IMG/VR virus record: IMGVR_UViG_3300042504_002810 | Coordinates: 1 to 25,946 of that record | From: a virus | Reading direction: 5' to 3' (one strand) | DNA length: 25,946 nucleotides | Shown here: in pieces, positions 4,713 to 25,946 of the stretch | How the letters are laid out: each line of letters starts with the position of its first letter | Numbering within the stretch: position 1 is the first letter of the stretch | The notes under the pieces: generated by a model | Told to the model about the DNA's origin: nothing | Databases searched by the model: none | Seen by the model: only the letters and a program-made list of their open reading frames with translations | Program-made: the position numbers and the translations under genes

Positions 4713-5342
4713 ATGACGATCACCGTCGACGGCCGGGAAGTTCAGATCACTGCGCCCGGTCAGGCCGTCTCCCTCATCCAGGACATCGCGGGCCAAGTGA
4801 CGCAGGACCGCCTGGCGTTTCGCGAGGCGAAGATCCGCATGGGCTGGATCTTCAACCTGGTGCGCGAGGAGTGGGCCCAGCTTTCCATGGATGAGTTTTG
4901 CGAGCTGTGCCGCGTGAACCGTCGCACCGCCTATCACGCGATGAAGATCGCGGCGGAGGTGGGTGACGACCGGGGCCGCTTCAGCCCGACCAAGTATCGC
5001 GAGCTGTGCCGGCGCCGTCGCGTGCGGCCGGCGGCGAAGCCGGAGGAGCTGAGCCTCGCGAAGATCGAGGAGCACACCGGGCTCCGCTCTGTGGAATCGG
5101 AAAGCGTGCACAGCTGTGCACACGCCGACGACGCGGAAACATCGGCAGAACATGGGGCAGAAGCGGGGAGCGTGCACAGGTGTGCACACTTGGCGAAGCG
5201 GTTGGCGGCGATGGCTGCCGCGCTGGTTGACCCGTCGGCGGTGGCCCTGATCTCGCTTGCGGGTGGTGATGAGATGGACCGGCTCGAGGAGTCGGTGTTT
5301 GCCGCGGAGCGGGCCGCGGGTGTGGTCTTGGGTGTGATCTGA
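4713..5342 (+). CDS. Predicted DNA-binding early protein with repeated SVHxCAH peptide
   Basis: The 209-residue protein has a helical N-terminal domain with a likely helix-turn-helix at about 57-83 (LSMDEFCELCRVNRRTAYHA), then a basic stretch CRRRRVRPAAKP (about 99-110). Residues 131-137 (SVHSCAH) and 153-159 (SVHRCAH) repeat a short peptide 22 residues apart. The DNA encoding them forms two near-identical palindromes. The C-terminal 50 residues are Ala-rich helix. ATG 4713 has GGAG eight bases upstream (4701-4704). It is first in the early rightward operon, divergent from the repressor, which fits a replication or partition initiator or an early regulator. No family was recognised. Confidence 0.8.
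   Translation: MTITVDGREVQITAPGQAVSLIQDIAGQVTQDRLAFREAKIRMGWIFNLVREEWAQLSMDEFCELCRVNRRTAYHAMKIAAEVGDDRGRFSPTKYRELCRRRRVRPAAKPEELSLAKIEEHTGLRSVESESVHSCAHADDAETSAEHGAEAGSVHRCAHLAKRLAAMAAALVDPSAVALISLAGGDEMDRLEESVFAAERAAGVVLGVI
5104..5189. repeat. Two palindromic repeats inside the early gene
   Basis: GTGCACAGCTGTGCAC (5106-5121) is a perfect 16 bp palindrome, and GTGCACAGGTGTGCAC (5172-5187) differs from it at one central base. The 20 bp blocks at 5104-5123 and 5170-5189 match at 19 positions. Their centres are 66 bp apart, about six helical turns, on the same DNA face. This looks like a paired protein-binding site. Confidence 0.75.
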
Positions 5343-7900: not shown

Positions 7901-7978
7901 CTGGTTTTTTCGGCGGCGGTCGTGGTGTCGACGGGTGCGGGCGGTGTGGTCTCGGGGGGGTTCTCGGGGAGCATTGGC

Positions 7979-11041: not shown

Positions 11042-11188
11042 GGGAAAAGTCCCAGCGTGTCCCAGCTGTCCCAGGGGTTCAGCAAACTCTCATCTCGTTT
11101 CGGCGAAAACAAAACAAGTGAGCTAAATGCTTTTCGTTTGCGCCGATGAAATCTCTCTAGAGTCCTGGGACAGCTGGGACTTTTGGGA
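11042..11188. repeat. Candidate replication origin: GTCCCAG iterons around an A/T-rich core
   Basis: GTCCCAG occurs three times on the plus strand (11049-11055, 11059-11065, 11068-11074) and twice inverted (11165-11171, 11174-11180), with 9-10 bp spacing. The outer arms also match: AAAAGTCCCAGC on the left against GCTGGGACTTTT on the right. Between them lie about 90 bp of A/T-rich DNA with an inner dyad TTTCG-G-CGAAA (11098-11108) and a second imperfect inverted pair (CGGCGAAAAC against GTTTGCGCCG). Iterons, an easily melted core and position right after a primase-helicase all fit an origin. Confidence 0.6.
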
Positions 11189-14863: not shown

Positions 14864-15071
14864 CGGGATCGCGAAGCTGGCCGAGGAGGACGCGGAGATG
14901 CGGGAGCTGTTGGCGGAGATCGGTGTGCGGCGGGCGCCGTCGACGACGGGGCGGGAGTTCGCCTTCGAGGTTCGGAACCGGACGGCGGTGGCGCGGGAGG
15001 TGCGGGCGGCGATCGATGGAGGTAGGCGGCGGGAGGGGAATCGGGTGGGGCGGGGGGAGGTGAGCGGATGA
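14709..15071 (+). CDS. Sigma-region-4-like helix-turn-helix regulator
   Basis: The product is about 120 residues from ATG 14709; GTG 14700 is the alternative and adds three residues. Residues about 15-45 (LREMLRPIRTVSDVAKELGM-type sequence ending NRHSVNKAERKALWKL) match the sigma-70 region 4 pattern, in which the recognition helix is followed by an AxRKALxKL helix. Phage proteins of this shape before the terminase genes often control late transcription, as ArpU/RinA/Q-like regulators do. The C-terminal half is acidic helix and then a basic Gly-rich tail. The stop overlaps the next ATG as ATGA (15068-15071). The late-regulator role is an inference from position and fold. Confidence 0.7.
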   Translation: MKTVATTERVGRVLAREMLRPIRTVSDVAKELGMNRHSVNKAERKALWKLFDGIAKLAEEDAEMRELLAEIGVRRAPSTTGREFAFEVRNRTAVAREVRAAIDGGRRREGNRVGRGEVSG

Positions 15072-15322
15072 GGAAGAATGCGCCGGAGAAGGGTGAGGTT
15101 GTGCGGCTGATGATTCAAGATCACCCGACGCCAGCGGGTTCGAGGCGTGCGATGGGCGTTGAGGTGTGCGCTGACTTCGTTGTCGTCGAGGTGTGGGGTC
15201 CTCCGTTTGCGAACGTGTGCGCAGTGCGCGAGATCGGGCGGGATGGGCAGCTGCTGCCGGCGATTGATCTGTACTGGCCGGACTGGACTGAGGATGTGAG
15301 GCGGGAAGCGGAGGAGGAGTGA
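15068..15322 (+). CDS. Hypothetical protein, 84 aa
   Basis: ATG 15068 overlaps the previous stop. The product has alternating strands: GEVVRLMIQDHPTPAGSRRA, MGVEVCADFVVVEVWGPPFA, then VCAVREIGRDGQLLPAIDLY and a highly acidic tail EDVRREAEEE. It looks like a small beta-sheet domain. No family is recognised. The stop (15320-15322) touches the nonamer repeat that follows. Confidence 0.7.
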   Translation: MRKNAPEKGEVVRLMIQDHPTPAGSRRAMGVEVCADFVVVEVWGPPFANVCAVREIGRDGQLLPAIDLYWPDWTEDVRREAEEE

Positions 15323-15348
15323 TGGGACTGATGGGACTGATGGGACGG
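15321..15348 (+). repeat. 9 bp tandem repeat, three copies, each with an ATG
   Basis: GATGGGACT is repeated in tandem from 15321 (third copy imperfect). It offers four in-frame ATGs of a possible 27-codon peptide (15322-15405) that overlaps the previous stop (TGATG) and the next gene's start. It may be a leader peptide or a slippage-generated spacer ahead of AAGGAGG (15358-15364). Confidence 0.6.
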
Positions 15349-15370
15349 ATGCTGGGGAAGGAGGCGGGCG

Positions 15371-15586
15371 GTGCACGAGACCATCGTTCGGATGATGATG
15401 GCTGATCTGGCTGACTTTGAGCACGTTGGGGTCTCTGATGTTCAGCGTGCGTACGGACTTGGATACAAGGCCGCCAGGGCGATCATCGATGAACTGGTTG
15501 AGCGTGGGAGGCTGCGGCGGGTGTACGACCTGAACGCGCCGCGGCCGTGGAAGGTGTGCGAAGTGAAGAAGGCGGGCGATACGTGA
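15371..15586 (+). CDS. FtsK-gamma-like winged-helix protein, 71 aa
   Basis: GTG 15371 lies six bases after AAGGAGG (15358-15364), the strongest Shine-Dalgarno in the window. Residues about 19-48 (HVGVSDVQRAYGLGYKAARA, then IIDELVERGRL) closely follow the gamma domain of the DNA translocase FtsK, in which a winged helix reads KOPS sites. Stand-alone versions occur in phages and plasmids as DNA-binding factors. No motor domain is present. It might bind DNA near packaging or regulate the late operon that begins at 15796. Its stop overlaps the next GTG as GTGA. Confidence 0.75.
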   Translation: MHETIVRMMMADLADFEHVGVSDVQRAYGLGYKAARAIIDELVERGRLRRVYDLNAPRPWKVCEVKKAGDT

Positions 15587-15750
15587 AATCAAGAAACGGC
15601 GTTTTTTATTTGGGGTCGCGGCGGTTCGTGTGTCGTCTTGATGCGGCGTGGTTTATGAGTATGGCGGGGTTGATTGGGTGGGGCATTGGAGGGGGCTGGC
15701 GTGGTGTGCGGTGTTCTTTGATGTTCTTTGATGATGTCGATGGGGTTTAG
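15583..15750 (+). CDS. Small hydrophobic protein, 55 aa
   Basis: GTG 15583 overlaps the previous stop as GTGA. The product begins VKSRNGVFYLGSRRFVCRLD and has one hydrophobic segment, AAWFMSMAGLIGWGIGGGW (about 21-39), probably membrane-spanning, then a tail ending FFDDVDGV. Codon usage is less G/C-rich than that of its neighbours. No family is recognised. Confidence 0.5.
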   Translation: MKSRNGVFYLGSRRFVCRLDAAWFMSMAGLIGWGIGGGWRGVRCSLMFFDDVDGV

Positions 15751-15795
15751 GGCGGTAGAGGGTGGAGGGGCGGAGATAGAGGGGAAGAGCTACGC

Positions 15796-16512
15796 ATGGA
15801 CGTGGTTGAGACAGGGGCGGCGGGGGCGACGGTTGGGGTGACCGAGGCGGCGAGGATCTGTGGGGTTACCCCCCAGACCGTCAACAACTGGGCCAAGCGT
15901 GGGCTTGATGGTGTGGCGGTGGTGGGGAAGACCGCGGCCGGCCGCAAGCTGTACGACATCGAGAAGCTGAAGACCTGGGCCCGGCAGAATACCGGCTGGG
16001 TGCATGGTGGGAAGCGTGAGGGTTCCGGCCGCAAGCCCGGGCTGTGGGCCGCGGCGAACGCGCACCAGCGGCCCGAGCCGCCCGAGAGCAAGAAGAACGA
16101 GACCCGAAGGCCTGAGCCGCGGGTGGTGCTGGATGATCAGGCCGACGATTTGCTGGAGCTGGGCGAGGCCCGCAACCTCGAGGACCTGATGAGATTGGCC
16201 GAGGAGGGCAAGTTGCCCGTGGCTCGGGTGAACGCGATCCGGGCGCTGTGGGATGCCAAGGCCAAGGAACGCGAACACAAGATCAAGATGGGGAAGCTCG
16301 TCGATGCCGACGAGTGGACGCGGGAACTGACGGTTTTCCTCGCGGCTCTGCGGCGGGATCTTGAATCCATGGCGGGGCGGATGACCCACTCTATCTGCCA
16401 ACAGCTGAAGGTGATGGAGCCGGATTCGATCCAGCGGGTGCGGGAACAGATCCAGGCCGAGGTGGACCGCTTTGTGCAGAACGTGCACGAGTTTGGAAAG
16501 AGGGCGGAATGA
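15796..16512 (+). CDS. terS: Terminase small subunit, Nu1-like
   Basis: The 238-residue protein has an N-terminal MerR/Nu1-type winged helix (about 12-56): TEAARICGVTPQTVNNWAKR, then a wing with KTAAGRKLYDIEKLKTWARQ. A basic, Gly-rich linker follows (GGKREGSGRKPG). The C-terminal half is helical: EREHKIKMGKLVDADEWTRE then FLAALRRDLESMAGRMTHSI, the Nu1 pattern for assembly and contact with the large subunit. It recognises the packaging site and regulates terL. ATG 15796 follows a GAGGGGAAGAG tract. Its large partner is at 1283, which is unusual. The stop overlaps the next ATG as ATGA (16509-16512). Confidence 0.85.
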   Translation: MDVVETGAAGATVGVTEAARICGVTPQTVNNWAKRGLDGVAVVGKTAAGRKLYDIEKLKTWARQNTGWVHGGKREGSGRKPGLWAAANAHQRPEPPESKKNETRRPEPRVVLDDQADDLLELGEARNLEDLMRLAEEGKLPVARVNAIRALWDAKAKEREHKIKMGKLVDADEWTRELTVFLAALRRDLESMAGRMTHSICQQLKVMEPDSIQRVREQIQAEVDRFVQNVHEFGKRAE

Positions 16513-16904
16513 GCGAATATCTTGGGGATGCTGATGGTTTGGCCTCGGTGCTGGGGACTGCTCCGGCGCCGTCGACGGTTTTGGCTGACGATCTCGAGGC
16601 CGACGCGGTGGTGATCAAGGAGATCAGGATCACGATCGGCGACAAGGACCCGGCGGCGATGAAGCCTTCGGAGATCCGGGCCGAGCTGAAGATCCTGCCC
16701 GAGCCGACCGAGGTGATCACCAAGGCACGCGAGAACATGGACACCGTGAACGCCATGGTGGCCGCCGAGCGCGAGGAGCTGCGACGCCTCGAGGGCGAGG
16801 CCCAGGCGCAGTACGTGCGGGCGTGCGAGATGGCGGATCAGATTCGGCTGCGGCGGAAGGCTTTGGCCGAGGCGGCTGAGAAGAGTGGCAAAGTGGCGAA
16901 GTGA
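16509..16904 (+). CDS. Coiled-coil head-module protein, 131 aa
   Basis: ATG 16509 overlaps the terS stop. The N-terminal half is acidic and mixed; residues about 75-125 (RENMDTVNAMVAAEREELRR, then a long Ala/Glu/Arg run) form a strong coiled coil. The last residues, SGKVAK, and the stop are encoded by the first units of the repeated element at 16884-16999, so the element's arrival set this protein's C-terminus. No family is recognised. Its place between the small terminase and gpW suggests a packaging or assembly accessory. Confidence 0.75.
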   Translation: MSEYLGDADGLASVLGTAPAPSTVLADDLEADAVVIKEIRITIGDKDPAAMKPSEIRAELKILPEPTEVITKARENMDTVNAMVAAEREELRRLEGEAQAQYVRACEMADQIRLRRKALAEAAEKSGKVAK

Positions 16905-16999
16905 CACAGTGGCAAAGTGAAGAGCGGCGGGCCCGAGTACTCGGCGCGCAGCCGTGCACTTGACCACTCGACCACTTGACCACTTCTTAGGGGCTTCCC
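16884..16999. repeat. Repeated dyad element with RBS, copy 1
   Basis: Five AGTGGCAA-type 8 bp units (16884-16920) are followed by a variable GC-rich centre with the palindrome CCGAGTACTCGG (16933-16944). Next come the block CGGCGCGCAGCCGTGCACT and an arm of CCACTCGACCACTTGACCAC. The last arm is partly complementary to the first, giving a long imperfect hairpin. AGGGG (16989-16993) lies six bases before the gpW-like ATG. Copy 2 is at 22235-22349; the outer parts are nearly identical and the centre differs. Confidence 0.8.
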
Positions 17000-17263
17000 A
17001 TGTCCTGGACCTATGCCGATTGGCCTTCGCAGTCGACGGTGCCGCTGCGCCTGACGCGGCTGCGGCTGCATATGGCCGAGGTGGCCAACCAGATCGGGAA
17101 TGAGCGGAGCGGGGACGGGTATTCCAAGGGCTCGGGGTCGCTCGCGCAGTACTACCAGGGGCTTGTGAACCAGGCCCAGCGGCTTGAGTCCATGCCCGGT
17201 GCGAGTGGTGGCGGGGCTGTCAGCAACCTCCGCATCGTGCGGCGCGGGCGGGGGATCCTCTGA
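17000..17263 (+). CDS. Head-to-tail joining protein, gpW-like
   Basis: The 87-residue protein occupies the gpW position, between the terminase and portal genes. It begins MSWTYADWPSQSTVPLRLTR, has a helix RLRLHMAEVANQIGNERSGD, a second helix LAQYYQGLVNQAQRLESMPG and a basic Arg/Gly tail. This two-helix plan with a C-terminal basic strand agrees with lambda gpW (68 aa), which fills the portal after DNA entry so that the tail can attach. The length is slightly above the family norm. ATG 17000 has AGGGG at optimal spacing, supplied by the repeat element. The stop overlaps the portal ATG as TGATG. Confidence 0.7.
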   Translation: MSWTYADWPSQSTVPLRLTRLRLHMAEVANQIGNERSGDGYSKGSGSLAQYYQGLVNQAQRLESMPGASGGGAVSNLRIVRRGRGIL

Positions 17264-18786
17264 TGTTCGAGTTGATCCGGGCGAAGTACGAGGCCGCGGT
17301 GGCGAAGGCCCGGCGGTCGACCGCGCAGGATTCGGCGGTGGCCGCGCGGCTGAACTACGTGGGCAGCTACACCAACGCCGAACGCAAGCGGACGCGGGCC
17401 GGGATGCCGACCCGCAAGGGCACACGCGACCAGCACCTCGATCGGTCTACGCTGGAAAAACTGGGCAAGGAAGCCGCGGATGTGCTGCGGAACAACCCCG
17501 AGGGCCGGGCGATCATCGGCCGGCTCGCGGACCTGTTGGTTCAGAAGGGCTTTGATATCGCGGTGAACTCCGGCGACAAGGAGTTTGACAGCGCGGCGGA
17601 GCGGATCTGGAGGAAGTGGGCACGCGAGAAGTACGCGGACTCGCGGCGGGGTTTGACCCACTTCCAGCAGGCCCGCGACCTGATCGTGAACGCGATGACC
17701 GGCGGCGGGATGATCGTGATCCCGCTCCGCGACGGGAGCAATCAGCTCGTGTGCATCGACCGGCTGGCGACCGCGCTGCCGGAGAATGCAAACATCCCGA
17801 GCGAGCGGTTTTACGGGGGCGTGGAGCTCAACGACTACGGCGCGCCGCAGGCCTTTTGGATCAAGCAGGGAACGTACGGGCAGGGGAAGGCCGTGCGGGT
17901 TCCCGCGGGGGCGACGAGCGATGTGGCCCGGATGTTCCGCTGCCCGAAGATGCTGGGCGCGGAGCAGACCTTTGGCGAGCCCGGGATTCAGGCGGTGATC
18001 GAGCGGCTGGAAACGCTGGACTCCATCATTTTCAACTCCGCTCTCTGCCTCGAGGTGGCGAGCGTGTACCCGCTGGTCGTCGAGTCGCCATTCCCGGACC
18101 AGATGAAGACGGCCATGGAGGCCGCGGGCAACGAAAGCGATCAGCCGACCAATGCTGAGAGCGATGACCCGCGTGAGCTGCAGATCGAACCCGGGCGGGC
18201 GATCTTCCTGCCGCAGGGGGCGAAGGCCTCGCAGGTGAAGGCCGAGCACCCGAGCACGGGCTTCGACAAGATGGTGTGGACGATGATCGCCTTGGCCGGC
18301 GCCGATCTGGGGCTGCCGCTGGTGGTGCTCTCGCTCGACTTCAGCCAAGTGAACTTCCACGGCGGGCGGGTGGCGATGGGTATGGCGGAGCTTGCTCTGC
18401 ACTCCTGGCGTGAGGAACTCGCGTCGACGTTCATTCGGCCCAGCTACCGGCAGCTGATCTCCGCGGCGATCCGCGATGGGCGGTTGCCGTTTGTTGAGGG
18501 GTGGGACGAGATCGATATCGTCTGGCCGCCCATGCCGATCGTGGACCTGAAGGCCGAGTACGAGGCGAGCGAGCTGGGCATCCGCAACAACCTGACGACG
18601 CTGGACCGCGAAACGCGGCGATTGGGAACCGGGCAGTGGGAAGAGATCGTGGCCCAGAAGGGTCGCGAGGCCGAGGCCCAGAAGGCGGCGGGCGTGATGC
18701 CGGCACTGTTGCCGGGGGCGACGGATTTGAACGCGAAGCCCGAGGGCAACGCGGAGCCCGCGGCGGACGAGCAGAACACCGCCTGA
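17263..18786 (+). CDS. Portal protein, lambda gpB type
   Basis: At 507 residues it is close to lambda gpB (533). The N-terminus has an Arg/Ala-rich helix followed by NYVGSYTNAERKRTRAGMPT, where portals of this family carry a short basic region. The wing and stem features include NPEGRAIIGRLADLLVQKGF, the IWRKWAREKYADSRRGLTHF segment and GGGMIVIPLRDGS. The later part has GADLGLPLVVLSLDFSQVNF and RVAMGMAELALHSWREE, the pattern typical of the gpB family. Twelve copies form the vertex channel through which terL pumps DNA. ATG 17263 overlaps the previous stop. The C-terminal tail is acidic and Ala-rich. Confidence 0.92.
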   Translation: MFELIRAKYEAAVAKARRSTAQDSAVAARLNYVGSYTNAERKRTRAGMPTRKGTRDQHLDRSTLEKLGKEAADVLRNNPEGRAIIGRLADLLVQKGFDIAVNSGDKEFDSAAERIWRKWAREKYADSRRGLTHFQQARDLIVNAMTGGGMIVIPLRDGSNQLVCIDRLATALPENANIPSERFYGGVELNDYGAPQAFWIKQGTYGQGKAVRVPAGATSDVARMFRCPKMLGAEQTFGEPGIQAVIERLETLDSIIFNSALCLEVASVYPLVVESPFPDQMKTAMEAAGNESDQPTNAESDDPRELQIEPGRAIFLPQGAKASQVKAEHPSTGFDKMVWTMIALAGADLGLPLVVLSLDFSQVNFHGGRVAMGMAELALHSWREELASTFIRPSYRQLISAAIRDGRLPFVEGWDEIDIVWPPMPIVDLKAEYEASELGIRNNLTTLDRETRRLGTGQWEEIVAQKGREAEAQKAAGVMPALLPGATDLNAKPEGNAEPAADEQNTA

Positions 18787-18802
18787 GCGGGGCAATCTGA
18801 AG

Positions 18803-18834
18803 CGAGCCGCCGGTTTTGTGGCCGCTTTGGCTCG
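18803..18834 (+). terminator. Hairpin after the portal gene
   Basis: CGAGCC (18803-18808) pairs with GGCTCG (18829-18834), with an inner CGG/CCG pair, and is followed by GTTCTT. It lies 17 bases after the portal stop (18784-18786). The weak T-tract suggests partial termination or RNA processing rather than a full stop. Confidence 0.4.
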
Positions 18835-18879
18835 GTTCTTCGCATGTTGTGAACGCATTTTCAGCAAGGAAGAACAAGC

Positions 18880-20235
18880 ATGATCCGCTTGATGATGTCT
18901 CGTGGGGCGGTTGGTCGCATGGAACGGCGCGGCCGGCTCTCCATGAACCAGTGGGACAAGGAAGTGCGCGACGCGATCGGCGAGGTTCGCCGGGAGGACG
19001 TCGTGGGGACGTGGGGCAAGGTGGCCCGCGTGCGCCTTGATTCCGCGGTGATGTTTGAGCCCGACCTGTGGACGACCTACGTGAGCGGGGCCCATCCCAC
19101 CGATCGGGTGGTGGACGCGATCAAGGCCGCGGCGGGCGACCCGGACGTGAAGGCGATTGTGCTCGAGATGAACGGGCCGGGTGGCTCGGTGGCCGGGTAT
19201 GACGACATTCGTAACGCGATCGCGCAGGCCAAGAAGACCAAGGTGGTGCAGACGCTGGTTCACGACGGCGCGTTCAGCCTCCACTACCGGATGGCCGCGG
19301 CGACCGACTACATCGCGGCGACGCCGACGGCGATGGTGGGCTCGATCGGGACCATCGTGCTGATGTACGACGACTCGGCGCTGTACTCCGAGGCTGGGGT
19401 GATCCCGAAGCCGGTGGCGAGCGATGGGTTCAAGGCCCAGGGCTGGGGCGGTGTGCCGCTCACGGATGAATACCTGGAGCACGTGCGGGCCTCGATCGTT
19501 GAGCCCGATTACGCGGAGTTTGTGGGCGAGGTGGCGGCGGGGCGCGGGCTGTCGGAAGACGTCGTGCGTTCCTACGGCTCGCTCGAGTACACGGCCCAGG
19601 ACGCGCTGTCCATGGGGCTTGTTGATGAGGTTGTTTCCGCGGATGCGTTCGTGGCCGCGTTGGCTTCGAACGGACCGCGTTCACCCCGACCCGACGCAAA
19701 TAGGGCCGGGAAGGGAGTGGTTATGTCAATGGATCTGAAAGCACTGAAGGCTGCGCACCCCGATCTCGTGAAGCAGATCGAGGAGCAGGCCGCGGCGAAC
19801 GTCGCGGCGGAGATGGCCCAGCAGGCCGCCAAGCCCGCGAGCTTCGCGGAGCTGAAGGCGGAGTTTGGCCAGGACGCCGCGTTCGTGGTGCAGGCCCTCG
19901 ACAAGGGCCTCACGCTGTCGGCCGCGCGGGCCGAGTGGAACACCCAGCAGAAGGCCGCGGAGGCCAAGCTGCGCGAGGAGCTCGAGGCCAGCAAGGCCGA
20001 GGCCGCCAAGCTCGCGAAGCTGCCGGGCGCCGGGCTCGAGGGCGTGAACACCGGGGCCGGTGGCGTGGGAAACGGTGGCGGGGCGAATGGAGGGGGTGAC
20101 TACGAGAAGCTCGTGGCCGCCAAGCAAGCCGAGGGCCTCACCCGCATCGCGGCCGTCGCGTACGTGAACAAGCACCACCCCAAGGCGTGGAAGGCCCAGG
20201 CGGAGAAGCTCCGCACGGCGATCGCGTCCAACTGA
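18880..20235 (+). CDS. Head maturation protease (S49/gpC) fused to scaffold
   Basis: The 451-residue protein pairs an N-terminal serine peptidase with a C-terminal scaffold. In the S49 domain, GPGGSVAGYDDI (about 99-110) is the oxyanion/substrate loop. S133 in HDGAFSLHY aligns with the catalytic serine of lambda gpC by its 10-residue spacing to the D of AATD, and K185 in SDGFKAQGWG is the general base. TPTAMVGSIGTIV is the characteristic strand. After residue 281 comes a helical, Ala/Glu/Lys-rich scaffold with a Gly-rich linker (about 388-410). The scaffold shapes the prohead and is then degraded. An internal start at 19723 could make the scaffold separately. Confidence 0.92.
   Translation: MIRLMMSRGAVGRMERRGRLSMNQWDKEVRDAIGEVRREDVVGTWGKVARVRLDSAVMFEPDLWTTYVSGAHPTDRVVDAIKAAAGDPDVKAIVLEMNGPGGSVAGYDDIRNAIAQAKKTKVVQTLVHDGAFSLHYRMAAATDYIAATPTAMVGSIGTIVLMYDDSALYSEAGVIPKPVASDGFKAQGWGGVPLTDEYLEHVRASIVEPDYAEFVGEVAAGRGLSEDVVRSYGSLEYTAQDALSMGLVDEVVSADAFVAALASNGPRSPRPDANRAGKGVVMSMDLKALKAAHPDLVKQIEEQAAANVAAEMAQQAAKPASFAELKAEFGQDAAFVVQALDKGLTLSAARAEWNTQQKAAEAKLREELEASKAEAAKLAKLPGAGLEGVNTGAGGVGNGGGANGGGDYEKLVAAKQAEGLTRIAAVAYVNKHHPKAWKAQAEKLRTAIASN
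19723..20235 (+). CDS. Scaffold protein from internal start (Nu3-like)
   Basis: Within the protease gene, AAGGGAG (19711-19717) lies five bases before an in-frame ATG at 19723. Translation from there gives 170 residues, starting MSMDLKALKAAHPDLVKQIE, which is exactly the scaffold part. It contains the long helix EQAAANVAAEMAQQAAKPAS and a C-terminal capsid-binding-type helix KHHPKAWKAQAEKLRTAIAS. Lambda makes Nu3 from an internal start in gene C in the same way. Since the capsid needs many more scaffolds than proteases, this second product is likely. Confidence 0.7.
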   Translation: MSMDLKALKAAHPDLVKQIEEQAAANVAAEMAQQAAKPASFAELKAEFGQDAAFVVQALDKGLTLSAARAEWNTQQKAAEAKLREELEASKAEAAKLAKLPGAGLEGVNTGAGGVGNGGGANGGGDYEKLVAAKQAEGLTRIAAVAYVNKHHPKAWKAQAEKLRTAIASN

Positions 20236-20266
20236 GGCAATGGGGAATAGGCAATGGGCAATGGGG
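20236..20266 (+). repeat. GGCAATG-type heptamer array, four units
   Basis: AAT recurs every 7 bp (20239, 20246, 20253, 20260) in units GGCAATG or GGGAATA, beginning one base after the protease-scaffold stop. It is one of several arrays with a different unit at structural gene junctions. Confidence 0.75.
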
Positions 20267-20317
20267 TAAGGCCCCGCTGCTCGACCTGAGCCCTTCGAAT
20301 CTGACACACAACACACA

Positions 20318-20347
20318 CGCCGGGGCACACCAACAAAGACCCCGGCG
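20318..20347 (+). promoter_or_regulatory. Strong hairpin before the decoration gene
   Basis: CGCCGGGG (20318-20325) pairs perfectly with CCCCGGCG (20340-20347) over a 14-base A/C-rich loop. It ends 14 bases before ATG 20362, and AAAGGAAG follows the stem as the ribosome binding site. With no T-run it is more likely an RNA-processing or stability element for the highly expressed capsid genes than a terminator. Confidence 0.5.
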
Positions 20348-20361
20348 ATGAAAGGAAGACC

Positions 20362-21057
20362 ATGAGCACCCAGCTCCGAAGCACCAGCTTTTCCGCGGTG
20401 ACCGCCGAGGCGATCACCCGATTCCAGGCCGTGTACCTCAACAGCTCCGGCCAGTGGGCCGTGGCGACGACCGCGACCCCGGCCGCGATCGGTATCGCAA
20501 TCGACACCGTGGCCAGCGGCGGCGTTCTCGCGGCCGAACTCTTCGCCTCTGGCGGCAGCCTGAAGATGATCGCGGCCGAGGCGATCACCGCGGGCTCCAA
20601 CGTGTACCAGGCGGCGGCCGGCAAGGTGGCCGACACCGTGGCGGGCGCGTTCCTGGGCGTGGCCCTGGACGCGGCCAGCGCCGACGGCGATGTGATCGAG
20701 GTGCTCCTGCCCCAGCCCGGCCAGATCGGGAGCCACTACCGGGCGTACACCGCCTCGGCCTCGCTCGGCGTGAGCATGTCGGGATTCACGATCACCAACC
20801 TGGGCGCGGCGGGCTCCGTGACCATCAGCCTCCCGACCGGCGTTCCGGCCGGAACGTGGTACCGATTCGTGGTGCAGGCGGCCCAGCAGCTGCAGATCGA
20901 TTCGGGCGCGAGCGACGCGATCATGATCGGCGGCACGACGTCGGCCGATGGCGCGTACGTGTGGGCCGATGACGAGGCCGAGAGCCTGACGCTCGTGGCC
21001 GACACCAACAACAACTGGGTGGCCGTGAGCCCGGTTGGCACCTGGACCGTCGTGTAA
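20362..21057 (+). CDS. Capsid decoration (cement) protein, DUF2190-like
   Basis: The 231-residue protein lies just before the major capsid gene, the position of lambda gpD. Residues 1-118 follow the DUF2190/cement pattern: SFSAVTAEAITRFQAVYLNS, then AAIGIAIDTVASGGVLAAEL, KMIAAEAITAGSNVYQAAAG and DTVAGAFLGVALDAASADGD ending VIEVLLP. Residues 119-231 form an additional beta-rich domain with GTWYRFVVQAAQQLQIDSGA and NNNWVAVSPVGTWTVV, a fold that recurs as an add-on in phage surface proteins. It probably sits on the outer shell and stabilises the expanded head; the extra domain may project from it. Confidence 0.8.
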   Translation: MSTQLRSTSFSAVTAEAITRFQAVYLNSSGQWAVATTATPAAIGIAIDTVASGGVLAAELFASGGSLKMIAAEAITAGSNVYQAAAGKVADTVAGAFLGVALDAASADGDVIEVLLPQPGQIGSHYRAYTASASLGVSMSGFTITNLGAAGSVTISLPTGVPAGTWYRFVVQAAQQLQIDSGASDAIMIGGTTSADGAYVWADDEAESLTLVADTNNNWVAVSPVGTWTVV

Positions 21058-21084
21058 GCCGCACACCGAACCACCAGCACACAG

Positions 21085-21124
21085 ACACACACACACACAA
21101 GGAAGAGGCGTCCGCGATGGACGC
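21085..21124 (+). promoter_or_regulatory. (AC)n tract and hairpin before the capsid gene
   Basis: An alternating AC run (21085-21098) is followed by a perfect GCGTCC/GGACGC hairpin (21108-21113 with 21119-21124, loop GCGAT). AAAGGA (21125-21130) is the ribosome binding site for ATG 21141. A six-codon frame (ATG 21117 to TGA 21135-21137) covers it. This arrangement would expose the ribosome binding site just after a stable stem. Confidence 0.5.
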
Positions 21125-21140
21125 GAAAGGATTCTGAATC

Positions 21141-22130
21141 ATGGGTTTCGCAACTCTTGGAAGCAACGTGTTCGACCGCGAGGATCTCGCGGCGCACATC
21201 ATGGAAGTGAACAACCGCGGCGGCTTTGTCGCCGGGCTCGTGGCCCCGGCCCTGCCGGTCGACAAGGCCACCGGCACCCTGATGGTGGTCTCCGCCACCA
21301 CCGGGAAGACCCTCGAGACCACCAAGCGCGGCAAGGGCGGCGCCTATCCCGAGGTCTCGGGCAACCTGAGCTCGGTGAGCTACTCGACCGAGGACCACGG
21401 GGCCGAGTTTGCGGTCGATGCGGTGCAGGCCAAGGCCTACGCCGCCCAGCTCGACATGGACCAGGCGGGCTCGGGCGCTGCCTTCTCCACCGTCGCGATC
21501 CGCTACGAGTACGACACCTTCGCCGGTGCCGCCAGCGTGTACACCCAGGTCTCTGGCAACAACGGCGCCGCGGCCTGGACGACCTACGCCACGGCTACCC
21601 CTGCCGCCGACGTCGCGGTTGAGGCCGCCGAGATCACCAAGCTCCACGGCGTGCCCAAGAGCGAGATGACCCTGCTCCTCCCCCGCGCTCGCTTCGACAT
21701 CCTGCCCTTCATCCTCGACGTCCGCGCTCGCCTGCAGATCCAGACGCAGCCCTTTGCGGGTTCGCTGACCGAGGCCCAGGCGGCCCAGTACTTCGGCGTC
21801 AAGGAAGTGCTCGTGGCTTCCGCCACCTACAACACGGCCAACGAAGGACAGACGGCCTCGATGGGGTACATCCACCCGTCGAACACCTGCCTCCTGTTCG
21901 TCCGCAGCGACGGCAACCCGGCCAACTTCGCGGGCTTTGCCCGTACCCCGGTCTGGGACGACACGATGCCCTACGAGGAAATCAAGGAGCGCGTCGATGC
22001 GGGCGGTATCCCCGTCGTGATCGATCAGCGCTGGGAATCCAAGCTCCGGACCATGTACTACCGGGCCCGCAACTACCGCGGCCTGTTCATCCACCTTGCG
22101 ACCATGGGCCGCAAGGTCACGAGCATCTAA
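21141..22130 (+). CDS. Major capsid protein, HK97 fold (gpE-like)
   Basis: At 329 residues it is close to lambda gpE (341). The N-arm MGFATLGSNVFDREDLAAHI is followed by an E-loop-like stretch with KTLETTKRGKGGAYPEVSG. A spine-helix region has EVNNRGGFVAGLVAPALPVD. The P- and A-domain strands show VEAAEITKLHGVPKSEMTLL and ILPFILDVRARLQIQTQPFA. The gene order protease-scaffold, decoration and capsid is the lambda order. It forms the icosahedral shell. It uses more C at third positions than its neighbours, consistent with very high expression. Terminator-like hairpins follow it directly. Confidence 0.9.
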   Translation: MGFATLGSNVFDREDLAAHIMEVNNRGGFVAGLVAPALPVDKATGTLMVVSATTGKTLETTKRGKGGAYPEVSGNLSSVSYSTEDHGAEFAVDAVQAKAYAAQLDMDQAGSGAAFSTVAIRYEYDTFAGAASVYTQVSGNNGAAAWTTYATATPAADVAVEAAEITKLHGVPKSEMTLLLPRARFDILPFILDVRARLQIQTQPFAGSLTEAQAAQYFGVKEVLVASATYNTANEGQTASMGYIHPSNTCLLFVRSDGNPANFAGFARTPVWDDTMPYEEIKERVDAGGIPVVIDQRWESKLRTMYYRARNYRGLFIHLATMGRKVTSI

Positions 22131-22153
22131 GCAACCTACGAACCCCAACCTGC

Positions 22154-22229
22154 TCGGGCCATGGGGCTCCTCCCCTCCTCCCCGTGGCCTGACGCCGCGT
22201 GGGCCGTCGGAAACGATGGCCCGCGTTTT
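22154..22229 (+). terminator. Tandem terminator hairpins after the capsid gene
   Basis: The first hairpin pairs 22154-22166 with 22180-22192, 13 bp with GU pairs. The second has a 12 bp stem (22198-22209 with 22214-22225), a GAAA tetraloop and TTTT at 22226-22229, the classic intrinsic terminator form. They lie right after the capsid stop and would lower transcription of the tail genes relative to the capsid. Confidence 0.75.
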
Positions 22230-22234
22230 GAAGA

Positions 22235-22349
22235 AGTGGCAAAGTGGCAAAGTGACAAAGTGGCAAAGTGAAGAACTGCGCACGTCGGTACGCGGCGCGC
22301 AGCCGTGCACTTTGCCACTCGACCACTTGACCACTCCAAAGGATCTCCG
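22235..22349. repeat. Repeated dyad element with RBS, copy 2
   Basis: Five AGTGGCAA/AGTGACAA units (22235-22270), a variable centre, the block CGGCGCGCAGCCGTGCACT and the arm CCACTCGACCACTTGACCAC mirror copy 1 at 16884-16999. It ends with AAAGGA (22338-22343) six bases before ATG 22350. It starts five bases after the capsid terminator. Confidence 0.8.
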
Positions 22350-22727
22350 ATGACGTGGAACGCCGACATGGCCGCCGATGCCGCCGGGCATGTGGCCGAT
22401 TTTGGGCGGTCCTGTGTCTACACCAAGCGGGTCGCCGGGGCCTTCAACACCACCACCGGCAAGCGGGCCGCCACCGAGACCACCCACACCCTCACCATGG
22501 TGAAGGCGATGGTGCAGACCTCGCCGGAGTTTGGGCAGGCCGTGGCCCGGCGCGTGCACACCGCGACCTTCAGCATCACCGCGGCCGACCTTGCGACCGC
22601 CGGGATTACCGTGGATACCAACGACCGCGTGACCGACGCGGACTCGATCGAGTTCACGATTCAGGAAATCAATCACCGCATGGACGGGGCCTTGGTGGTC
22701 CTGACGTGCAAGAGGACTGCGCCATGA
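22350..22727 (+). CDS. Putative head-completion/connector protein
   Basis: The 125-residue product begins MTWNADMAADAAGHVADFGR and is beta-rich: CVYTKRVAGAFNTTTGKRAA, TFSITAADLATAGITVDTND, then IEFTIQEINHRMDGALVVLT. The size and place just after the capsid gene fit a gpFII-like head-tail joining protein, whose fold is a small beta-barrel. The assignment is positional. ATG 22350 has AAAGGA six bases upstream within the repeat element. The stop overlaps the next ATG as ATGA (22724-22727). Confidence 0.65.
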   Translation: MTWNADMAADAAGHVADFGRSCVYTKRVAGAFNTTTGKRAATETTHTLTMVKAMVQTSPEFGQAVARRVHTATFSITAADLATAGITVDTNDRVTDADSIEFTIQEINHRMDGALVVLTCKRTAP

Positions 22728-23314
22728 TTCAGGGACAGTGTGAGTTCATCGCCGGTGAGACCGACATCACCGCCACCGTGTCTTCGCTCACCGATGGGCG
22801 CGTGCTCGAGAACAGCATCGCGACCACCAACGTGATCCGCATCCCGCTCGGGGCCTCCCAGGGGCAGCGGCACCGGACGCTGAGCCTTCGGCCCTTCGGC
22901 AAGGGGGCGGACAACAGCGCGTTCACGCTGATCCTGTACGGGCGGCGGCGGACCTCCGCGGTGCGGGGGCGGCCCGCGTCCCCGCGCGGTGAGCTTGGGG
23001 CCCTTGTCTCCAACCAGGACGGCGAGCTGCGGAAGATCGGCGAGCTGGTCTGCACGCTGAGCACCGCGACTGGTGTCTCTGGCGGGGCGATCGATACCAG
23101 CTACCGCTTCGCGGACACGCTGGTGTGGACGGCCACCGCGTGGTGGACGGCGATCGAGGCGGCCCTGGGTGTGTCGGGCGCGGCGTACTCCCCCACCACC
23201 AACATCCCCGGCGACTTCATTCTGCCCGACCTGGCCGGGCTCGAGGATGTGTACATCCAGGCGACGATGACCAGCGCGACGGCGGCGAACGTGCTGGCCG
23301 AACTGCAGACTTGA
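22724..23314 (+). CDS. Beta-rich virion protein, 196 aa
   Basis: Starting at ATG 22724 in the previous stop, it opens MIQGQCEFIAGETDITATVS and shows many short strands: VIRIPLGASQGQRHRTLSLR, FTLILYGRRRTSAVRGRPAS, then FADTLVWTATAWWTAIEAAL and a C-terminal VYIQATMTSATAANVLAELQ. A FILPDLAGL segment lies near 163-171. Its length is that of lambda gpZ (192), but it does not resemble gpZ in sequence. It is probably a neck or head-surface component. No family is firmly recognised. Confidence 0.65.
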   Translation: MIQGQCEFIAGETDITATVSSLTDGRVLENSIATTNVIRIPLGASQGQRHRTLSLRPFGKGADNSAFTLILYGRRRTSAVRGRPASPRGELGALVSNQDGELRKIGELVCTLSTATGVSGGAIDTSYRFADTLVWTATAWWTAIEAALGVSGAAYSPTTNIPGDFILPDLAGLEDVYIQATMTSATAANVLAELQT

Positions 23315-23317
23315 TTC

Positions 23318-23353
23318 AAAGCGAAAAGCGAAAAGCGAAAAACGAAAAGAAGA
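23318..23353 (+). repeat. GCGAAAA heptamer array, four units
   Basis: Four tandem 7 bp units (GCGAAAA three times, then ACGAAAA) lie three bases after the preceding stop. This is an A-rich tract in GC-rich DNA and precedes the GGAG site of the next gene. The unit differs from every other array in the window. Confidence 0.8.
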
Positions 23354-23373
23354 CCAGAACGGAGTGATGAACT

Positions 23374-23847
23374 ATGGCGGTAGTGAACACCAACGGCACG
23401 GTGAAGCGGTGGCTGAACGGCGGCACGCTCACCATCACCGGCGCGGCCGATACCCACCCGATCCTCAACATCCACGAGGGCGCGATCACCTTCAAGCCCG
23501 TGATGCGGGAGCGGCTGTACTTCAAGGACCGCGGCGTGAACCAGCAGCCCCTCGAAGGTGACGACGTGATCGGCGAGCTGAGCGTGGAGGTGAACTGCGG
23601 CGCGCTCGCGGGCGCGACCTCCCTCCTGAGCCTGCTGCTCACCGAGGACGCGACGGATACGCAGGTGGCGAAGGAGTACGCCTCCTTCATCATGGACTTC
23701 CCCAACACCCGCGGCTCCTCCGCCGGTGAGCGGGTGACGTTCACCAACGTCTCTATCCCCGAGCCCCCCGAGTTCAGCAAGGGCACCGATCACGACACGC
23801 TGAAGTTCACGGCGCGGTTCCGGGCGCACACCGTCGCGACGTACTAA
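23374..23847 (+). CDS. Probable tail tube protein
   Basis: The 157-residue protein begins MAVVNTNGTVKRWLNGGTLT and is nearly all beta: GAITFKPVMRERLYFKDRGV, QQPLEGDDVIGELSVEVNC, then GERVTFTNVSIPEPPEFSKG and TLKFTARFRAHTVATY. The order of a first hairpin, an E/D-G-D loop and paired C-terminal strands is that of phage tail tube and related Hcp-fold proteins. It would polymerise into the tail inner tube. Its small size is compatible with short tube proteins. A neck protein is the main alternative. The start is ATG 23374 with GGAG upstream. Confidence 0.5.
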   Translation: MAVVNTNGTVKRWLNGGTLTITGAADTHPILNIHEGAITFKPVMRERLYFKDRGVNQQPLEGDDVIGELSVEVNCGALAGATSLLSLLLTEDATDTQVAKEYASFIMDFPNTRGSSAGERVTFTNVSIPEPPEFSKGTDHDTLKFTARFRAHTVATY

Positions 23848-23891
23848 GCACACTGCAGGGCGGCCGCGTGCGGCTGTGAAAGGGGCTTTCT

Positions 23892-24734
23892 GTGGCGATT
23901 ATTCGGACGGCGGCGGACTCTCCAAACCTGTTGACCCACCTGGGTACGGCCCTGGGCTCGATCGCGGACGGCGACGAGCTGCAGGTTGAGAAGTACTCCC
24001 AGGACTTCACCGGCGGGTGCAACGTCTCGACGAAAGACCTGCTCCGGTTCCGCATCGGGCCCGGGTCTTCTTCGCGTTTTATCTCCGCGAGTGGTGGCGC
24101 TCTCACGCTGGTGTGCAACCGGACCAGCACCGGGCGGTTCATCAACCAGAGCAGCGCGGACCAGGTTGAGCTCGTCAGCAGCTCGACCTCCGGCGTGATC
24201 TACAACATCGAGAATCAGCCCGCGAACGCGAGCGGCATCCTGCGCGTCAACACGTGCGACGCCAACAACATCTATCAGCTCGCGGGCCGCCTGTACCAGC
24301 AGGCCGACGCGGACTTCAACGTCGTCAACGTGCACGGCGGGGCGTTCTTCAGCCGCAACGGTTCGGCCGCGATCGGCACCCTCAACAACTACGTCGGCAC
24401 CAGCGACATCGAGCGCGATGTCGGCACGGCCAACGCCTACGGCGGGACCATTCGGCCCAACCACACGGCCTTTACCCCCGGCACCATCAACCTGCGCGGC
24501 GGCACCATCAAGGTGCTGGAGACGGGGAACTGGGGCGCGGGCAACCTGGAGCACGGCGTGATTGACCTCACCGAGTGCAAGAGCCTGGGCGCCTCCGCCG
24601 GGTTCTTGTTTGCTGTGGCGTCGGGCTCGATCGGGCCGGGCGTGATCATCCGCCAGCTCCGCGGCGGGCTCCTCTTCGACTACTCCGCGCTGACGAGCGT
24701 GGCCGGTGGGCCGCGTGTCGAATACGTGGGGTGA
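23892..24734 (+). CDS. Probable beta-helical virion protein, 280 aa
   Basis: GTG 23892 has AAAGGGG six bases upstream. The protein begins VAIIRTAADSPNLLTHLGTA. From about residue 55 it has repeated short strands ending in small or polar turns, such as GGALTLVCNRTSTGRFINQS, QVELVSSSTSGVIYNIENQP, DFNVVNVHGGAFFSRNGSAA and GTINLRGGTIKVLETGNWG. That pattern suggests a parallel beta-helix, as in adhesins and tail fibres. Its place between the tube-like and tail-terminator genes is unusual for a fibre, so a head or tail decoration is also possible. Confidence 0.6.
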   Translation: MAIIRTAADSPNLLTHLGTALGSIADGDELQVEKYSQDFTGGCNVSTKDLLRFRIGPGSSSRFISASGGALTLVCNRTSTGRFINQSSADQVELVSSSTSGVIYNIENQPANASGILRVNTCDANNIYQLAGRLYQQADADFNVVNVHGGAFFSRNGSAAIGTLNNYVGTSDIERDVGTANAYGGTIRPNHTAFTPGTINLRGGTIKVLETGNWGAGNLEHGVIDLTECKSLGASAGFLFAVASGSIGPGVIIRQLRGGLLFDYSALTSVAGGPRVEYVG

Positions 24735-24740
24735 GGCGGA

Positions 24741-24761
24741 GGGGGTGAGGGGGTGAGGGGG
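24741..24761 (+). repeat. GGGGGTGA octamer array acting as RBS
   Basis: GGGGGTGA is repeated about three times and ends five bases before ATG 24766, so the repeat itself supplies the purine-rich ribosome binding site. TGA recurs at 24746 and 24754. Confidence 0.65.
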
Positions 24762-24765
24762 TCTT

Positions 24766-25245
24766 ATGGCGATTCATCTGGACAAGGCCACCATCGCGCG
24801 GCTGGTTGAGGCTCGCATCGAGACCGCGAACGATGCGACCGGGCCTGTCACTCTGCGCGTGATCCACACCGGCGAGGCGGACCCCGACCCTTCCGAGGGT
24901 GCGGTGTGGGCCCGGGTTGTGTCCATGAAGATGGCCCGCAACCCGCGGCGGTCGACCGATGAGGAGCCGCGCGGCACCATCGAGATCCTGATCGGCGTGA
25001 GCTGCAGCGAGGCGGAGAACGAGGAGTCGGCGTTTGCGATCAACTCCGCGGTTGAGGCCGTCTCGCGCGTGCTCGAGTGCGTGACGCTGGACGACTCGGG
25101 GACCTCCGGGCATGTGATCGACCTTCACCAGACCGAGGACCAGGACGAACGCGGCGGGGCGTTTAACCAGATCGTGGCGTCCGAAGTGACGGTGTTTGGG
25201 CAGGTGCGGCGGTTGAGCGGGACGAGTGTGGAGACGTATCACTGA
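24766..25245 (+). CDS. Tail terminator protein, gpU-like
   Basis: The 159-residue protein begins MAIHLDKATIARLVEARIET and has the alpha/beta pattern of the gpU/tail-terminator family: GAVWARVVSMKMARNPRRST, then IEILIGVSCSEAENEESAFA, a helix SAVEAVSRVLECVTLDDS, and final strands ASEVTVFGQVRRLSGTSVET. In lambda, gpU (131 aa) caps the tail tube and fixes its length before the head joins. The match is by pattern and position. ATG 24766 takes its ribosome binding site from the GGGGGTGA array. Confidence 0.65.
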   Translation: MAIHLDKATIARLVEARIETANDATGPVTLRVIHTGEADPDPSEGAVWARVVSMKMARNPRRSTDEEPRGTIEILIGVSCSEAENEESAFAINSAVEAVSRVLECVTLDDSGTSGHVIDLHQTEDQDERGGAFNQIVASEVTVFGQVRRLSGTSVETYH

Positions 25246-25252
25246 GAAGAGG

Positions 25253-25280
25253 GGCACTAGGCACTGGGCACTGGGCACTA
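25253..25280 (+). repeat. GGCACT(A/G) heptamer array, four units
   Basis: GGCACTA, GGCACTG, GGCACTG and GGCACTA follow in tandem with no spacer, between the stop at 25243-25245 and the RBS of the next gene. This is another instance of a junction-specific array. Confidence 0.8.
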
Positions 25281-25305
25281 GGGGAAGAGGCGGAGGGGAC
25301 AGGAA

Positions 25306-25662
25306 ATGATTGAAGTTGAAGCAATCAAGCCGGAGCGGGATCAGGAGCATCTGGACTCGGACGAGCTGGGGTCGGCGCTGGTCTTTGATGTCGCGAACAT
25401 CGAGGACGTGGTGGTGCAGCTTGTCAACGGCGAGGGGTTGTCGGCCTGGCCGACGTCGCTTGTCGTGACCCTCCAGTGCTCGCTCGACTTCTCGGCGTGG
25501 TCTGACTTTCCGTCGGGAGCGGTGACGTACAACAGCTTCGGCGTGAAGGCCGCGGTGAATGTCTCCGGGCTTTCGGCGGTGCGGATCGTGGTGACGACGG
25601 TGAGCAGCGGCGGGCACGGGAACGTCGCGGTGCGGGTAAACGGCGTGAAGAACGTCGAGTAA
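25306..25662 (+). CDS. Small beta-sandwich virion protein, 118 aa
   Basis: ATG 25306 follows GGAGGGGACAGG. After an acidic N-terminus (MIEVEAIKPERDQEHLDSDE), strands such as ALVFDVANIEDVVVQLVNGE, SLVVTLQCSLDFSAW, KAAVNVSGLSAVRIVVTTVS and NVAVRVNGV give an all-beta protein. It may decorate the tail or serve as an assembly factor. No family is recognised. The next gene starts 12 bases after its stop. Confidence 0.6.
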   Translation: MIEVEAIKPERDQEHLDSDELGSALVFDVANIEDVVVQLVNGEGLSAWPTSLVVTLQCSLDFSAWSDFPSGAVTYNSFGVKAAVNVSGLSAVRIVVTTVSSGGHGNVAVRVNGVKNVE

Positions 25663-25674
25663 GAGGGGGAAGTT

Positions 25675-25946
25675 GTGCCCGACTACACCAGCTTCCAGTT
25701 TCTGGACGATGACGACGAGTTCCCGTTTTTCCCGGAGGACACGGGCCGGGGGCTTCGCGTGGCCCGGTACGGGTTGCTGCAGGCGGCGGACCCGCTGAAG
25801 GCGATCATGCACTCGAGCGTGCCGCAGCGGGGCGAGCGGTTGCGGGAGGACCTGTTCATGTTCGTCACCACCCGGCGGGTGATGAAGACCATGGGCGGGC
25901 GTGTGGGCGATGGCTCGGGGCCGGTGTACAAGCTCGAGATCATCTA
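25675..25946 (+). CDS. Hypothetical virion-region protein, 5' part
   Basis: GTG 25675 follows GGGGGA by four bases, and the frame is open to the end of the window (90 codons seen). The product begins VPDYTSFQFLDDDDEFPFFP, a strongly acidic start, then RVARYGLLQAADPLKAIMHS and EDLFMFVTTRRVMKTMGGR. It reads as an unknown structural or assembly protein. The C-terminus is missing because the window ends. Confidence 0.6.
   Translation, partial: MPDYTSFQFLDDDDEFPFFPEDTGRGLRVARYGLLQAADPLKAIMHSSVPQRGERLREDLFMFVTTRRVMKTMGGRVGDGSGPVYKLEII

Follow-up and report, generated by a model that had tools for sequence, protein, structure and literature searches.

The late region of this phage genome raises the question of what has placed a different short tandem array at the ends of so many of its genes, and where such arrays come from. 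We examined IMG/VR record IMGVR_UViG_3300042504_002810 over its full length (the window, 25,946 nt). Arrays were detected and delimited by TRF and counted over positions 15,001–25,946, with 300 dinucleotide shuffles giving the chance level. The following arrays were delimited:

15316–15351, + strand: GGGACTGAT x4.0, 9-bp unit, at a stop codon
16884–16919, + strand: AGTGGCAA x4.5, left half of hairpin copy 1
20236–20265, + strand: GGCAATG x4.3 with one variant unit (GGCAATG/GGGAATA), solo, immediately 3' of the S49 protease gene stop
22234–22270, + strand: AAGTGGCA x4.6, left half of hairpin copy 2
23318–23349, + strand: GCGAAAA x4.6, solo, 3 nt past a stop codon
24728–24762, + strand: GGGGTGAG x4.6 (GGGGGTGA unit), solo, spanning a stop codon
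25253–25282, + strand: GGCACTA x4.3 (GGCACTA/G), solo, 7 nt past a stop codon

It was found that the region holds eight arrays of 7–9 bp units, compared to a shuffle mean of 0.003 (maximum 1), and hence chance does not yield them. A sequence-only reading had placed such arrays at nearly every late junction. The arrays themselves are real. Of the 12 spacers measuring 25 bp or more, 7 contain one (spacers make up 10.6% of the region), and the spans listed above correct the earlier ones. The proposed placement after stop codons is borne out by stops at 15322, 16904, 20235, 23314, 24734 and 25245: arrays start within, at or a few bases past the stop codon, with the exception of that at 22234, which begins 104 nt past the capsid stop. 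The AC run counted among the arrays in that reading (21078–21099) is a dinucleotide run and of a different kind. As with STRRs, the phage units are degenerate, 7–8 bp long and present in approximately 3–5 tandem copies (TRF), and the arrays sit in spacers or overrun stop codons; 9-bp units occur in two more arrays, at 15316 and 11049. The former may be coding (MGLMGLMGR...), making its membership uncertain, and GGGACTGAT found no match among host loci.

The two AGTGGCAA-type arrays, previously taken for two plain arrays at 16884 and 22235, are in fact each the left half of a hairpin element of ~108 bp. The element is present in two copies, 85% identical, whose inverted second halves (16957–16985 and 22315–22336) had been overlooked. 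A third hairpin of similar build, 3' of the primase gene, lies outside the range covered by the sequence-only reading and was missed there:

16884–16991, + strand: hairpin copy 1, with the AGTGGCAA array (16884–16919), a GC-rich core and an inverted CACTTGAC array (16957–16985)
22234–22342, + strand: hairpin copy 2, with the AAGTGGCA array (22234–22270), a core and an inverted CCACTCGA array (22315–22336)
11049–11182, + strand: third hairpin, with a GTCCCAGCT array (9-bp unit), a core of ~70 bp and an inverted CTGGGACAG array

Copy 1 is located between a small head gene, the stop of which (16904) falls inside the array, and the gpW-like/portal genes, while copy 2 separates the major capsid and head-closure genes. 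The two cores share a stretch of 20 bp, with CGGCGCGCAGCCGTGCACTT common to both. RNA folding gave −48.7 kcal/mol for copy 1 (z −4.3 vs shuffles), −50.4 kcal/mol for copy 2 (z −4.7) and −64.1 kcal/mol for the third hairpin (z −5.6). Stem-forming inverted ends are present in these three hairpins and absent from the four solo arrays, which show no special RNA folding. The composite hairpin pattern had no match in genome contigs and the 20-bp core none in viral contigs; the exact core of the 108-bp element was absent from the genome and viral collections searched, the GTCCCAGCT unit was not seen in the host loci fetched, and an Rfam search matched no family.

The arrays could be functional phage elements kept by selection whatever their origin, serving as binding sites or in mRNA processing, stability or translation coupling. 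The share of late spacers occupied, the three hairpins that fold far better than shuffles, and the position of one of them 3' of the major capsid gene, a place where stabilisation by a hairpin would be plausible, are consistent with such a role, as are the comparable Beggiatoaceae TAACTGA arrays near start codons, which have been proposed as translational sites (PMC4679880). However, the units differ from junction to junction so that no single protein would recognise them all, the solo arrays fold unremarkably, and 20 of 21 distant capsid relatives are without arrays in the parts seen, although at 22–40% identity these are too distant for a comparison of junctions. We consider selection for function an unlikely account of the arrays. 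No close relative of the phage was found by megablast, or by capsid comparison to annotated phages; capsid relatives in viral contigs likewise fall at the 22–40% identity given above, TerL relatives are all below 60% identity (best ~30%), and TerL found only distant matches in 298 Phycisphaerae-class genomes. Since there is no close relative, no empty site is seen in the phage.

The same units recur in bacteria. Five of them (AGTGGCAA, GGCAATG, GGCACTA, GCGAAAA and GGGGGTGA) form dispersed arrays, often in inverted pairs, in Phycisphaerae-type planctomycete genomes, i.e. in genomes of the host type rather than in an identified host. The AGTGGCAA octamer was located in 99 genome-contig stretches, about half of them planctomycete, and the octamer element was matched in all 18 planctomycete genomes of the octamer set, at up to 36 places per genome. 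GGCACTA arrays occur in 7/8 planctomycete genomes and 0/8 controls, GCGAAAA in 4/18 and 0/8 (with inverted pairs ~60–100 bp apart in G015), GGGGGTGA in 3/18 and 0/8, and GGCAATG in 3/8 planctomycete genomes (dispersed in G003, G004 and G005). An inverted pair of TGAGGGGG and TCACCCTC is found in G002:C4 at 232509/232561. The eight control genomes are devoid of phage units, the one exception being GGCAATA arrays in a Bacteroidota genome, and reversed unit patterns are nearly absent, unlike the true units. This supports the earlier suggestion that the arrays are of the kind described as STRRs in cyanobacteria and are host-type. Judging from the repeats, the host is likely a Phycisphaerae-type planctomycete.

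The sequence-only reading had also proposed independent gain by polymerase slippage. On a slippage account, arrays would arise in place in neutral spacers and any likeness to the host would reflect shared composition or slippage bias. The units do vary by junction with similar copy numbers, spacers tolerate slippage, and the number of units in the Coxiella IVS differs among strains, indicating slippage alters array length. Against this, two of the arrays belong to a 108-bp element present twice, both copies having an inverted second array and the same 20 bp in the core; inverted pairs are common and not predicted by slippage, and identical units are dispersed in planctomycetes while being nearly absent from controls and reversed patterns. 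Slippage is already disfavoured for the octamer pair, and as an account of the arrays in general we regard it as decidedly improbable.

A gene accompanies many of the host-type arrays. Members of the 23S_rRNA_IVP/S23 family (IVP, PF05635), a four-helix bundle of ~115 aa, were found between inverted arrays: for inverted array flanks, 36 of 47 planctomycete IVP genes lie above the controls' 99th percentile, and 34 of the 47 score at least 35, as do only 0.2% of random host windows. Bacteroidota IVP genes are likewise flanked by inverted arrays. On plasmids, mostly cyanobacterial, 11 of 12 IVP loci are array-flanked, the cyanobacterial ones with classical STRR units. Furthermore, 22 viral contigs contain an IVP gene; 12 of the 17 distinct ones show inverted-array flanks, and some of the elements adjoin portal, tail-fibre or terminase genes. 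Three phage units are identical to IVP-flanking arrays, these being AGTGGCAA (L197 and L200), GGCAATR (L188) and GGCACTA (L190). The literature searched, comprising few subscription journals and no preprints, contained no description of a link between IVP genes and STRR arrays.

Only 7 of the 99 octamer-array loci have an adjoining IVP gene. As most arrays stand alone, either direction is possible, with an element decaying to an array or an IVP gene entering between arrays. At one dnaE site, related genomes display empty, solo-array, array-pair and full-element states, with no clean target duplication readable. Where different genomes have an IVP gene at the same junction, these genes are in most cases mutual nearest relatives, suggesting long residence and leaving rapid movement unsupported. 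The phage window contains no IVP ORF, and the phage copies can thus be at most gene-less relatives of IVP/IVS elements; they lie between protein genes and not in 23S rRNA, and so in location do not fully match an IVP/IVS. The annotated phage records yielded no IVP at E 1e-5. A reverse transcriptase (RVT_1) acting in trans was considered as partner and showed no association: it is present in 82/150 genomes, and IVP-rich genomes without it include G164 (13 IVP genes) and G048 (7), although these drafts may be incomplete.

A REP/MITE-type origin with no relation to IVP genes, in which an IS200-like (RAYT) or another DNA transposase moves the arrays, is very improbable: they do resemble REPs and MITEs as small dispersed gene-gap hairpins, and RAYT genes occur in planctomycete genomes, but those examined are flanked by ordinary REP hairpins (CGCCCCAACGGGGCG, GTAGCCACGGGT) and none by 7–8 bp arrays, which instead flank the IVP genes of those genomes. 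As for MITE features, the hairpins have inverted ends, and no parent transposase was found.

We therefore favour, with a probability of about 0.72, an origin of the phage arrays from IVP ("IVS-like") elements of the host, the solo arrays being single ends and the hairpins copies that lack the gene. A full element consists of a short tandem array, the ~115-aa PF05635 gene and an inverted copy of the array. Such elements and their solo arrays are scattered over Phycisphaerae-type planctomycete genomes, mainly in gene gaps, with a host of this type the most likely source for the phage. The elements presumably insert as units, with solo arrays as their remains or seeds, and their position at stop codons may reflect a lack of tolerance for them anywhere else. 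By analogy with the Coxiella 23S rRNA intervening sequence (PMC4990558), RNase III would cut hairpins formed by their transcripts. Within the phage, the elements are probably tolerated passengers, although as a side effect their hairpins may shield stretches of mRNA or keep them apart, e.g. behind the capsid gene.

To our knowledge, the short intergenic heptamer and octamer arrays of bacteria (classical STRRs) have been known for decades with no agreed origin, and we know of no function for the IVP/S23 protein despite its solved structure. The evidence connects the two in four phyla and in viruses, and shows that STRR-type repeats also enter viruses, with phage genomes carrying both full elements and gene-less scars. 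It is an even bet whether a single pan-bacterial class of minimal selfish element, with IVP/S23 as its sole gene, accounts for STRR-type arrays generally (those of cyanobacteria, planctomycetes, Bacteroidota, Xanthomonas and phages) as its ends, its solo remnants or copies that lack the gene; such a class would spread between genomes and viruses, and the 23S rRNA IVS would be its best-known case. STRR origin, the role of the IVP protein and element movement are now directly testable, and unit types could aid host assignment of uncultured phages.

One close counterpart is the 23S rRNA IVS, in which terminal inverted repeats form a stem and some members carry a four-helix-bundle ORF; in Coxiella burnetii, 2–3 tandem heptamers (GACAGAT) are located directly upstream of the S23p ORF, and RNase III cuts at the first heptamer repeat (PMC4990558). 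The phage elements differ in lying between phage genes, lacking the IVP gene and having tandem arrays as ends. Cyanobacterial STRRs and the Beggiatoaceae TAACTGA arrays (PMC4679880) are similarly degenerate 7–8 bp repeats of few copies in gene gaps, with many units per genome, whereas the present arrays occur in a phage and partly as inverted pairs. The Xanthomonas GGGAATC heptamer arrays are intergenic, have around four units and form 70–75 convergent inverted pairs per genome, with dnaE among the associated genes; they are, in contrast, located on a bacterial chromosome and, in the available part of that account, treated as G-quadruplex sites with no link to IVP (PMC4692102). Finally, the REP/RAYT system (REPtron; PMC3733652) also pairs small dispersed gene-gap hairpins with a repeat-flanked partner gene, but the array elements have tandem-array ends and no GTAG tag, and their partner is PF05635 rather than a Y1 transposase.

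The window, a virus record of 25,946 bases, carries lambda-type head genes.

Genes of the phage, by position in the window
1037-3394, large terminase
7922-10891, primase
15796-16512, terminase small-subunit-like protein
17263-18786, portal
18880-20235, S49 protease
20362-21057, cement protein
21141-22130, major head protein
22350-22727, head closure

The gene order is unusual: the large terminase precedes both the small-terminase-like gene and the head genes by ~12 kb. Two 30-bp copies (GAAxCGGxxAGCGTGCACAGxTGTGCACAC, 87%) lie at 5094-5189, inside an ORF at 4713-5342. A near relative of the phage was sought in the sequence collections and none was found; the claim on the phage itself is limited for this reason.

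The sequence-only reading had reported 7-9 bp tandem arrays at late gene junctions, and this was partly confirmed. TRF recovered all of the named 7-9 bp arrays at slightly shifted coordinates. The AC run at 21,085 consists of dinucleotide repeats and falls outside this class; the 9-bp array at 15,316 is possibly part of a coding sequence. Within 15,001-25,946, eight arrays have a period of 7-9 and at least 2.8 copies; dinucleotide shuffles of the same region (n=300) averaged 0.003 and never exceeded 1. Of the 12 spacers measuring 25 bp or longer, 7 contain an array (spacers make up 10.6% of the region), and the majority of arrays begin inside, at or right after a stop codon, as had been proposed.

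The arrays at 16,884 and 22,235, previously taken as plain arrays, each proved to be the left half of a 108 bp element present in two copies (85% identical), the inverted second halves having been overlooked. In both copies a GC-rich core separates a AGTGGCAA array from an inverted CCACTTGA/CCACTCGA array, and a 20 bp core stretch (CGGCGCGCAGCCGTGCACTT) is identical between them. Their predicted RNA folds reach -48.7 and -50.4 kcal/mol (z -4.3 and -4.7). A third inverted-array hairpin, with GTCCCAGCT as its 9-bp unit, spans 11,049-11,182, beyond the range originally considered (-64.1 kcal/mol, z -5.6). No special RNA folding was found for the solo arrays of the phage.

The octamer array AAGTGGCAAAGTGGCAAAGTG was found in one viral contig and in 99 stretches of genome contigs, approximately half of which are Planctomycetota (mainly Phycisphaerales), the remainder being mainly Prevotella, Flavobacterium and Anaerolineae. 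At many Phycisphaerales loci the array is followed by an inverted array within ~30-170 bp, as in the phage. The sole viral match (L026, 1178-1283) is an inverted pair in reverse order, with the CACTTTGC array first, an arrangement shared with the Prevotella loci. The phage element matches 18 of 18 planctomycete genomes at 1 to 36 places each, these genomes having been picked by the octamer and hence by selection. Other units were searched in planctomycetes alongside eight non-planctomycete genomes. GGCACTR arrays occur in 7/8 planctomycetes versus 0/8 others, GCGAAAA arrays in 4/18 versus 0/8 and GGGGGTGA arrays in 3/18 versus 0/8; GGCAATR arrays occur in 3/8 planctomycetes and also in one Bacteroidota genome. 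With the patterns reversed, neither GGCAATR nor GGCACTR gave a match and GGGGGTGA gave one; for GCGAAAA, a unit nearly alike read backwards, such a control is uninformative. TRF analysis of 400 kb of one such planctomycete genome revealed several unit families, many in inverted pairs. The shared units thus make a Phycisphaerae-type planctomycete host likely without proving it: among 298 genomes of this class, the phage terminase has distant relatives only.

At one comparison locus (L122), the two octamer arrays lie on either side of a gene from the 23S-rRNA-IVP/S23 four-helix-bundle family (PF05635, hereafter IVP), hence further PF05635 genes were fetched. Nearly all of 18 such genes from six planctomycete genomes have inverted short tandem arrays on both sides, each with its own unit; units besides those listed also flank IVP genes.

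Array units flanking IVP genes, by locus
L188, GGCAATA
L190, GGCACTA
L191 and L194, GGCATTC
L195, AGAGACGA
L197 and L200, AGTGGCAA/G
L202, AAATTGCT

The family is present in 124 of 150 genomes of the class, and 30 further loci from these brought the sample to 47 usable IVP genes. The inverted-flank score exceeds the control 99th percentile for 36 of the 47, and is at least 35 for 34 of them, versus 0.2% of random host windows. Such flanks also occur at Flavobacterium, Prevotella, Galbibacter and Polaribacter loci, at 11 of 12 plasmid IVP loci (mostly cyanobacterial) and on 12 of 17 distinct viral contigs with an IVP gene, where some elements adjoin portal, tail-fibre J or terminase genes. The flanks on cyanobacterial plasmids are classical STRR units, e.g. 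GGGAGTA, GGGTGTA, GGGAACA and GGGAAAA. On three of these plasmids (L346, L349, L351) the elements are flanked by CRISPR genes, cas6-cas4 in two cases and cas10-cmr3 in one. On viral contig L285 (1113-4949), an element with ACTAAGGA arrays lies inside an open 1279-codon DNA polymerase III alpha-type ORF. Viral contig L009 (1-4448), which has a related capsid gene, is a second phage rich in arrays; its eight arrays are built on other units (TTTTGCT/AAAGCAA hairpins, CAACGGA, TCAGTTG, ACGGACC), and one of them falls within a protease-like ORF. The literature searched, coverage of which was partial, contained no description of the IVP-array link, which may be published elsewhere.

No reverse transcriptase partner was apparent. 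RAYT (REP-associated IS200-like transposase) genes coexist with array elements in G002 and other planctomycete genomes, where they have classical REP hairpins (CGCCCCAACGGGGCG ... GTAGCCACGGGT). As RAYT genes are flanked by these ordinary hairpins and not by arrays, RAYT was rejected as a partner, and the arrays are therefore specific to the IVP gene.

Three Phycisphaerales genomes (loci L197, L072 and L200/L067) carry a full IVP element inside dnaE. The DnaE frame stays open across ~430-530 bp, overlapping the IVP gene, which is read in a different frame. Most of the 61 relatives examined at this site lack an insertion; L303, L311 and L313 have a solo array, and L327 (81 bp) and L331 an inverted pair without gene. 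The solo arrays and 108-bp hairpins of the phage correspond to these solo-array and gene-less pair states. IVP genes sharing a junction are mostly mutual nearest relatives, and elements can therefore be old residents of their sites.

Of the two origins put forward from the sequence alone, slippage in place is not supported. A host-derived origin of the phage arrays is supported by the host-type units, and is extended by the link to the IVP gene. The most economical view is that the arrays would be tolerated passengers at gene borders; the hairpin behind the capsid gene could have a putative role in shielding or separating mRNA. Transcripts of array/IVP elements would, by analogy, form stems that are cut by RNase III. 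The nearest studied case is the Coxiella 23S rRNA intervening sequence, which has inverted ends and an S23p ORF with two to three tandem heptamers immediately upstream, RNase III cutting at the first heptamer (PMC4990558).
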